Source of the DNA: Drouetiella hepatica Uher 2000/2452
GTDB lineage: Bacteria > Cyanobacteriota > Cyanobacteriia > Elainellales > Elainellaceae
Length of the DNA stretch: 64,000 nucleotides
Direction of reading: 5' to 3'
Assembly: GCA_019359505.1 (NCBI GenBank)
Contig: JAHHHD010000006.1
Span: forward strand, 1 to 64,000
A program made the position numbers and the translations under genes. This document shows, one piece after another, positions 9,088 through 14,818 of this stretch. Every line of letters starts with the position of its first letter. The first letter of the stretch is position 1. The notes under the pieces were generated by a model. That model ran no database searches. It saw only the letters and a list, made by a program, of their open reading frames with translations, and was not told the DNA's origin.

Positions 9088-9182
9088 TATGGCAACCGTC
9101 AAGGCGGTTAGGACAGCGACATTTTGGGTGGCGCGCTTCGTGCGCCACCCAAAATGTCCTAGGCAAACTGGCGAAAGATATA
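9088..9182 (-). repeat. palindromic element, full copy (opposite orientation)
   Basis: Flanks TATGGCAACC and CAAACTGGCG surround a hairpin with perfect 17-bp arms (9118-9134, 9142-9158; arm GACATTTTGGGTGGCGC). It lies between the convergent ends of rpsD and moaA. Confidence 0.85.
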
Positions 9183-12252: not shown

Positions 12253-13860
12253 GTGACTCTCCAAACTGAAACCCCCCCGCAGACTTCATCTACCCCCAGG
12301 CTCGATCGCCAGATGATCGTCATCTTGGACTTTGGTTCTCAATATTCTGAGCTGATAGCCCGTCGAATTCGTGAAACCCAGGTTTACTCAGAAGTTCTGT
12401 CCTATCGCACGTCGATCGAACAACTGCGGCAATTGAGTCCCAAAGGCATTATTCTTTCGGGTGGCCCTAGCTCTGTCTATGACCCTGGCGCCCCTCAGTG
12501 CGATCCGGGAATTTGGAACCTCGGTATCCCCGTGCTAGGCGTTTGCTATGGGATGCAGGTTATGGTGCAGCAGTTGGGTGGCGGCGTAGAACGGGCAGAG
12601 CGCGGCGAATATGGAAAGGCTTCACTGCACATCAATGATGCTACTGATCTACTCACGTCTGTAGAGAATGATGCTGTGATGTGGATGAGTCATGGAGACT
12701 CTGTGACCCACCTGCCTGAAGGCTTTGAGCTATTGGCTCATACTGACAACACGCCCCAAGCTGCCATTGCCGATCATGCCCGTAAGCTCTACGGCGTTCA
12801 GTTTCATCCAGAAGTCGTGCATTCTCTGGGGGGTCAGGCTTTAATTCGCAATTTTGTGTATCACATCTGCGAGTGTGAGCCGACCTGGACAACTGATGCT
12901 TTTGTCGAAGAGGCGGTAAGAGAAATCCGGGCGCGGGTGGGCGACAAGCGAGTGCTGCTAGCGCTTTCGGGCGGAGTAGATTCCTCGACGCTAGCTTTTT
13001 TGCTGCATCGGGCGATCGGCGACCAGCTAACCTGTATGTTTATCGACCAAGGCTTCATGCGCAAGGGCGAGCCAGAGCGGCTAGTAAAGCTGTTCCGGGA
13101 GCAGTTTCACATTCCTGTAGAGTACGTCATGGCGCGCGATCGCTTCCTGGCGCAAGTCGTTGGAGTCACCGATCCTGAAGTGAAGCGGAAGCGCATCGGC
13201 CATGAGTTTATCAGCGTCTTTGAGGAAGAATCAAAGCGGTTAGGCCCCTTTGACTATCTGGCACAGGGAACACTCTACCCGGACGTGATTGAATCTGCTG
13301 ATACCAACGCAGATAGCAAAACGGGCGAACGGGTGGCAGTCAAGATCAAGAGCCATCACAACGTGGGTGGACTGCCTAAAGATCTGCGGTTTAAGCTAAT
13401 CGAGCCTCTACGCAAGCTGTTTAAAGACGAAGTGCGTAATGTGGGGCGATCGATCGGCTTACCTGACGAGATCGTGCGTCGTCAGCCTTTTCCAGGCCCT
13501 GGCTTAGCCATCCGGATCATTGGTGAAATCACGGTCGAGCGCCTCAATATTTTGCGGGATGCTGACCTTATCGTCCGCCAGGAGATCAACCGCAGCGGAA
13601 TGTATCATGAGCTTTGGCAAGCTTTTGCGGTGCTATTGCCTATTCGCAGTGTTGGGGTAATGGGTGATCAGCGTACCTATGCCTATCCGATCGTCCTGCG
13701 GTTTGTAACGAGCGAAGATGGCATGACGGCAGATTGGGCAAGAGTGCCCTACGATTTACTAGAAACTGTGGCGAATCGCATTGTCAACGAGGTGCGTGGC
13801 GTGAACCGGGTTGTGTATGACATCACTTCTAAGCCGCCCGGAACGATCGAATGGGAATGA
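12253..13860 (+). CDS. guaA: GMP synthase (glutamine-hydrolysing)
   Basis: The enzyme converts XMP to GMP using glutamine and ATP. The glutamine amidotransferase class I domain has nucleophile C98 (GVCYGMQ) and H185/E187 (QFHPEV). The ATP-pyrophosphatase domain has the PP-loop SGGVDSS at 239-245, and the dimerisation domain ends in KPPGTIEWE, the family's usual end. The 535 residues are typical. The start is GTG at 12253. The gene is monocistronic and faces a convergent gene across the DnaA-box cluster. Confidence 0.97.
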
Positions 13861-13891: not shown

Positions 13892-13986
13892 TATCGCAAC
13901 CTCCAAGGCAGTGAGGACAGGGACATTTGGGGTGGGGCACTTTGCGCCCCACCCCAAATGTCTTAAGCAGGCTCACGACAGCTATA
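13892..13986 (-). repeat. palindromic element, full copy (opposite orientation)
   Basis: Perfect 17-bp arms (13922-13938, 13946-13962; arm GACATTTGGGGTGGGGC) enclose loop ACTTTGC. The flanks are diverged copies of the family flanks (TATCGCAACC and CACGACAGCTATA). It lies directly beside the DnaA-box-like cluster. Confidence 0.8.
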
Positions 13987-14002: not shown

Positions 14003-14100
14003 TTTTCCACAGGTTTTCCACAGGTCTTCTCTAGACAGGGCAACATCTTGTGAAAAATTTGCCCAAAGCCTGTGGAAAACTTTGGGTCGCCTGTGGAAAG
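14003..14100. promoter_or_regulatory. phased cluster of DnaA-box-like sites (candidate origin or DnaA-titration site)
   Basis: Two TTTTCCACA sites lie at 14003-14011 and 14014-14022, 11 bp apart. Two inverted sites follow, TGTGGAAAA at 14071-14079 and TGTGGAAAG at 14092-14100, 21 bp apart. A weaker TGTGAAAAA lies at 14050-14058. TTTTCCACA is the DnaA box form used in cyanobacteria. Spacing close to one and two helical turns and the symmetric arrangement argue against chance. An A/T-rich stretch, TAGTTAAGAATTTAAGAG, abuts the left side. The region lies between convergent genes, so it is not a promoter of either. Confidence 0.65.
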
Positions 14101-14124: not shown

Positions 14125-14742
14125 CTAACGTCCCATCTGACGTTTGAGCCGTTCTAGCTCTTCTTCGGTTTCCCATTGCTTAAACTTTTGCTCAAGGGGA
14201 TCAGCGCTTGAACCATCGAATCGGTAGTTCTGATTCCATCCTGAAGTTTGCCACTTTTGCTCAACTTGCTCAGTTGCCTGAGAAGCGGCTGCTTGAGATG
14301 CCGAAGCTTTTGCCGCCTGAGCCTGAGCTTGAGCCTCAACTATCTTCGTTTTAACTTCCTGCTTGCGAGCCTGGATTTGCTGATGTAGTTCTGCCGCCTG
14401 TTTAATCCGACCTTTCACGACCTCCATTTGCCCCCATAGCTGGTTGCCTTGACGCAATAAAGCCGCCTCTCGTTCTTCTGCTGGCTTCAGCAAATCTAGC
14501 CGCTGTGCTGTTTTGGCTTTTTCAATTCGCACATGCCAACGTTGGACTTCCTGGGCTGTCGCCAGAATCTCGTCTTGAATTTTCTTTTCTCGTAGACGCA
14601 AGTCCGCCAACAGACGAATTGTTTCTTCTTCCTGTTCCCTCAGCTTTTCCTCTAGCGCCATTAGCTCCAGATCAGGATTGCTACGAAGAAACTCCTCTAG
14701 CCGCATCTCTAAAAATGTGCTGAAATCCTCAAACAACCCCAT
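14125..14742 (-). CDS. coiled-coil protein of the cyanobacterial TIGR04376 type
   Basis: A 205-residue protein when started at ATG 14742, where CGGGAG precedes the codon at good distance; an upstream in-frame start at 14784 is less likely. The opening MGLFEDFSTFLEMRLEEFL is followed by a long charged coiled coil, LEEKLREQEEETIRLLADL. A segment with EEREAALLRQGNQLWGQM and an Ala/Gln-rich stretch come next, then a C-terminal ELERLKRQMGR. I recall this architecture as a conserved cyanobacterial family of unknown function. It is probably a cytoplasmic or peripheral structural protein. Confidence 0.7.
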   Translation of the reverse strand: MGLFEDFSTFLEMRLEEFLRSNPDLELMALEEKLREQEEETIRLLADLRLREKKIQDEILATAQEVQRWHVRIEKAKTAQRLDLLKPAEEREAALLRQGNQLWGQMEVVKGRIKQAAELHQQIQARKQEVKTKIVEAQAQAQAAKASASQAAASQATEQVEQKWQTSGWNQNYRFDGSSADPLEQKFKQWETEEELERLKRQMGR

Positions 14743-14818
14743 AGCGGCTACTCCCGTTGAAAAATCTATGTTTTTATCGTACACAAGGGACTAAACTCTA
14801 TCATTCGATCGTCGGATA

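Follow-up and report, generated by a model that had tools for sequence, protein, structure and literature searches.

In Bacillus subtilis, six DnaA-box clusters (DBCs) outside oriC are thought to take up DnaA, and their joint deletion resulted in early initiation (PMC5295017). Escherichia coli possesses datA, which is non-coding, lies at a distance from oriC and contains five DnaA boxes (PMC5295017), as well as the conserved non-coding sites DARS1 and DARS2, which contain three and six boxes, respectively, with a core of three (PMC4585315). datA promotes the hydrolysis of DnaA-ATP, while the DARS sites release ADP from DnaA and hold a conserved position relative to oriC; IHF binding sites are required for the activity of datA and DARS, and Fis is needed also for DARS2. 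Among cyanobacteria, Cyanothece 51142 has boxes of the consensus TTTTCCACA adjoining dnaN, which were bound pairwise by domain IV of DnaA in vitro (PMC4674748). A literature search, largely without subscription papers, yielded no datA-, DARS- or DBC-like site for cyanobacteria and no publication joining DnaA, ChIP-seq and S. elongatus.

The locus described here, site A, is located in a stretch of 64,000 nucleotides of Drouetiella hepatica Uher 2000/2452, which is called the window in the following. Like the DBCs, it consists of several DnaA boxes in a short stretch outside oriC; it differs from them by a fixed three-box architecture with spacings of 21/22 bp and by a conserved place beside guaA or a gene for a coiled-coil protein. 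With datA it has in common the non-coding nature, five boxes and a location away from oriC; the comparison concerns the number of boxes and their place, and the need for IHF and the promotion of DnaA-ATP hydrolysis are properties described for datA. Conservation, the non-coding nature and a core of three boxes are shared with DARS; however, the chromosomal position of datA and DARS is fixed and that of site A is variable. The cyanobacterial oriC upstream of dnaN contains the same box TTTTCCACA, pairs at 21 bp and double boxes (PMC4674748), but site A has no DnaA-trio and neither dnaN nor dnaA nearby. We class the locus with the DnaA-box clusters outside oriC and equate it neither with datA or DARS nor with oriC itself. 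It is, in our estimate, rather probable that the cluster is a conserved DnaA-binding locus outside oriC, which tunes the active DnaA available to the dnaN origin.

The box cluster in the window

Within 98 bp of the window, five DnaA-type boxes with at most one mismatch are present (Table 1); simulated windows (200 first-order Markov simulations) contained a maximum of two such boxes per 98 bp. Three of the five are exact copies of TTTTCCACA, and there is no further exact box anywhere in the 64 kb, in agreement with the preliminary description, which had noticed no other in intergenic DNA. The draft assembly of 6.4 Mb contains 70 exact boxes, compared to 35 matches of a reversed control pattern, and only three places in it have two exact boxes on the same strand within 25 bp, i.e., the window cluster, the region upstream of dnaN (C1:35838) and C37:146765.

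Table 1. Features of site A and its surroundings (window positions)
Feature	Position	Strand	Remarks
DnaA box 1, core array	14092..14100	-	CTTTCCACA, 1 mismatch; aligns with conserved box 1 of relatives
DnaA box 2, core array	14071..14079	-	TTTTCCACA, 21 bp from box 1
DnaA box 3, core array	14049..14057	-	TTTTTCACA, 1 mismatch, 22 bp from box 2
Facing double DnaA box	14003..14022	+	TTTTCCACA at 14003-14011 and 14014-14022, 2-bp gap
Whole DnaA-binding locus (site A), putative	14003..14100	.	Box cluster, simulations, conserved place, alignment
guaA (GMP synthase), convergent neighbour	12253..13860	+	
Coiled-coil protein gene, convergent neighbour	14125..14784	-	Without Pfam family; in 35/36 genomes of the order
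Palindromic hairpin, outside conserved array	13922..13962	.	Four similar copies occur in the window, this one included

The preliminary description had reported two direct boxes 11 bp apart, two inverted boxes 21 bp apart and a weaker box in the middle, between the convergent guaA and a coiled-coil gene. The neighbours and the direct boxes, both exact, are as claimed. For the inverted pair the spacing is correct, but only one member (box 2) is exact. The weaker box does exist and should be read as box 3 of the core, because the same-strand order with 21/22 bp becomes apparent on the minus strand, which is the strand of the coiled-coil gene: box 2 lies 21 bp after box 1 and box 3 a further 22 bp on, and then comes the facing double box. 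In the other 15 aligned relatives, box 3 is an exact TTTTCCACA. In the three genomes of the same genus, the facing double box was seen as well, either as a pair or as a remnant; for E. coli DnaA, a preference for a gap of 2 or 3 bp between boxes was described (PMC11317965).

Two accompanying features had been mentioned. The A/T-rich stretch beside the boxes is there but weak (70% AT over 27 bp). The adjoining palindrome was likewise found; however, it is not specific to the site, since it is one of four similar dispersed copies. These near-perfect hairpins (GGGTGGGGCNNNNNGCNCCCCACCC) occur at window positions 9126, 13930, 26825 and 50574 (four copies, compared to none in shuffled sequences). 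Site A as a repeat or mobile element was rejected, the palindrome being dispersed yet outside the array. Known RNA families were also discarded, with only chance matches of miRNA type far below the gathering scores of Rfam, and so was an RNA structure or terminator, since the window contains one weak hairpin and RNAalifold detected no common pair across 16 relatives.

Conservation in relatives and association with dnaA

When 16 relatives were aligned, the three core boxes were essentially invariant and the spacers had diverged; the only box mismatches were the two in the window itself. In loci which were fetched by the neighbouring gene only, and not selected for boxes, the spacings between exact boxes on the same strand were 21 bp (15 times), 22 bp (15 times), 11 bp (twice) and 43 bp (once), with no others up to 120 bp. 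Arrays with 21/22 bp were present in 36/36 genomes of the order to which the window belongs, and the reversed control pattern in 0/36. As judged from these alignments, the core array is a textbook phylogenetic footprint across the order.

At least 31 of the 36 genomes have the site-A array next to one or both of guaA and the coiled-coil gene. It accompanies both genes in 10 of them, only guaA in 13 and only the coiled-coil gene in 8, where one array is situated at a contig edge; upon separation of the two genes it remains with one of them. A sample of the phylum contained eight exact arrays situated 3' of guaA at a distance of 113–415 bp and uniformly directed against this gene, from five families, i.e., the window's own and four others; the window's array was entered in this count by hand, since two of its boxes are inexact. 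In one family (f10), the array adjoins a cation-efflux gene, 15–20 kb from guaA. Retention of the array and its orientation while the neighbours change argues for an autonomous locus. The distance from site A to dnaN amounted to about 42%, 34% and 10% of the chromosome in G029, G061 and G030, respectively, and a fixed chromosomal position was rejected, with the reservation that these genomes belong to different genera or families, which makes the comparison looser than one between E. coli strains. A local sink or catalyst for DnaA would fit such variable distances more easily than a position-timed switch.

Exact two-box arrays with 21/22 bp were found in 80 of 110 dnaA-bearing genomes of the class, leaving 30 without, and in 1 of 19 dnaA-less genomes (Fisher p = 2e-8); this test refers to arrays at any site, not to site A alone, ignores phylogeny and leaves out family f19, which has small genomes with dnaA and almost no such arrays. 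The stronger part of the association is the contrast within genera, which was seen in g67 (G191 versus G289 and G296), g64 (G177 versus G181, G217 and G302) and g35 (G155, G360 and G402 versus G088). On the second contig of the sole dnaA-less genome with an array (G143), a 21-bp unit occurs twice in identical form and has an iteron-like look. In family f6, which we infer to be Nostocales from named loci with the order dnaA-array-dnaN, hardly any array lies elsewhere than at dnaN/dnaA. Nostoc 7120 can dispense with DnaA (PMC7198777), and a loss of accessory sites in this family would agree with this.

Possible functions of site A

Titration of DnaA or control of its nucleotide state, which would help to time replication, appears from our analysis as the most likely role. 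Several DnaA molecules would bind to the three boxes, which lie on the same face two helical turns apart, and to the facing double box. The locus could thereby hold DnaA and possibly shift its ATP/ADP state, and the amount of active DnaA for the origin upstream of dnaN would be tuned. Once the locus is replicated, its capacity for DnaA would double and re-initiation would be delayed. With about 3–7 boxes per site, the capacity for simple titration would be small. Of the titration locus suggested in the preliminary description, the part concerning a DnaA site other than an origin is well supported by the footprint, the place and orientation, and the loss of arrays together with dnaA; titration itself, or nucleotide-state control, as well as binding of DnaA in vivo and an effect on the timing of initiation, are what we would predict from these data.

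The other suggestion, a replication origin, is not supported. In this genome, the canonical origin is found on a different contig, upstream of dnaN (dnaN at C1:36307, dnaA at C73:250, the window on C37). This region combines two box pairs and an AT-rich stretch with a DnaA-trio (CTACTACTACTA); in TTTTCCACATTTTCCACAGACCCTACTACTACTA the boxes are followed by the trio, which is the unwinding module of B. subtilis and was predicted in most bacterial origins (PMC8287927). When a strict CTA-rich rule was applied, a DnaA-trio was detected at 9 of 16 dnaN origins of the order and at none of 27 orthologous site-A loci, including the window (Fisher p = 2e-5), nor at any of 12 DUF2811 sites (see below). 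Neither dnaN nor dnaA is found beside site A, both being on other contigs. It is therefore very improbable that site A serves as an origin, main or secondary, even though clustered boxes including double boxes are as in origins and some cyanobacteria replicate from several origins (PMC7198777). The multiple-origin species which were described replicate independently of DnaA (PMC7198777) and thus would not select for DnaA boxes, and the AT-rich stretch at site A is, as mentioned, weak. GC skew provides no argument for or against an origin here: 59 samples of 20 kb from the closed genome of a relative (G029) showed no significant pattern (permutation p = 0.45), which is to be expected, since most cyanobacteria have irregular GC skews (PMC7198777).

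An action of DnaA on transcription, either by blocking or terminating RNA polymerase between the convergent genes or by coupling guaA, and hence GMP synthesis, to the level of DnaA, would be compatible with the constant orientation of the array at the 3' ends of guaA and the coiled-coil gene, and with the one weak terminator-like hairpin in the window, which overlaps box 2. In addition, the gua operon of E. coli is repressed by DnaA, according to a statement in PMC8203912, which cites Tesfa-Selase and Drabble 1992 for it. We consider such an action unlikely, since the array lies outside both promoters, terminator-like sites are no more frequent than in shuffled sequences, no hairpin is conserved, and at site B the same type of array is found upstream of another gene. 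Regulation of guaA in particular is weakened by the survival of the array without guaA nearby (8 genomes); in 13 genomes it persists without the coiled-coil gene nearby. The idea that the boxes came together by chance, or are what is left of a plasmid iteron array or some other repeat, can be given hardly any credence. Iteron-like tandem TTTTCCACA arrays with 21 bp do exist elsewhere, for instance on plasmid pSOE2, but the number of boxes exceeded that in all simulations, and position and orientation are orthologous across genera and families; diverged spacers with fixed boxes also mean that no recent tandem copying took place.

A conserved DnaA-binding locus outside oriC, the reading preferred here, would bear on how initiation is controlled in cyanobacteria, many of which are polyploid and some DnaA-independent. 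Two conserved and precisely placed arrays are directly testable targets for laboratories with tools for DnaA. Origin predictors which are based on box clusters can miscall such sites as origins.

Site B and similar arrays elsewhere

A second class of arrays, site B, was located 216–510 bp upstream of a DUF2811 gene (PF10929) in constant orientation. It was present in 54 of the 80 genomes examined and spans 21 families; this proportion is not a frequency for the phylum, because the 80 genomes had been chosen for an exact array somewhere. The third cluster of the window genome (L003:1440-1640; G000 C37:146.7 kb, outside the window) belongs to this class. In many cases, hemJ (UPF0093) or a HemY-type gene comes next after the DUF2811 gene. 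Site B has in common with site A the same-strand 21/22-bp array of TTTTCCACA, the lack of a DnaA-trio and the constant orientation; in contrast to site A, it is situated upstream of a gene and has a wider phylogenetic spread. Owing to this position it may regulate a promoter, and it possibly represents a DnaA-controlled gene or a second DnaA control site. As far as sequence comparison goes, the data show the 21/22-bp array to be a recurrent cyanobacterial module. DUF2811, a widespread gene of unknown function, is tied to DnaA by site B; its structure model was of low confidence (pLDDT 66), and no paper on it was found, again largely without subscription papers.

A more far-reaching scheme is offered tentatively, and we incline to doubt it as a whole: sites A and B would form an ancient two-site control of DnaA outside oriC in cyanobacteria, the three-box 21/22-bp array would assemble a defined DnaA oligomer controlling the availability or nucleotide state of DnaA, DUF2811 would regulate initiation in response to DnaA, and all of these would be lost once DnaA became dispensable.

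Several other arrays were noted. In G027 (L394, L409), one array adjoins hemJ and another precedes DUF2811, which looks like a duplication of site B upon separation of the genes. The tiny plasmid pSOE2 of the symbiont Candidatus Pantoea edessiphila (L081) carries a long tandem array of TTTTCCACA with a period of 21 bp, probably iterons. Exact three-box arrays of TTTTCCACA with 21/22 bp were also present in Thermoanaerobaculia, Bacteroidaceae, WOR-3, Anaerolineales and other MAGs, non-cyanobacterial or unassigned (L066, L070, L074, L085, L094, L101), where they are possibly the origins. Facing arrays which adjoin related genes were observed in L085, L094 and L180.
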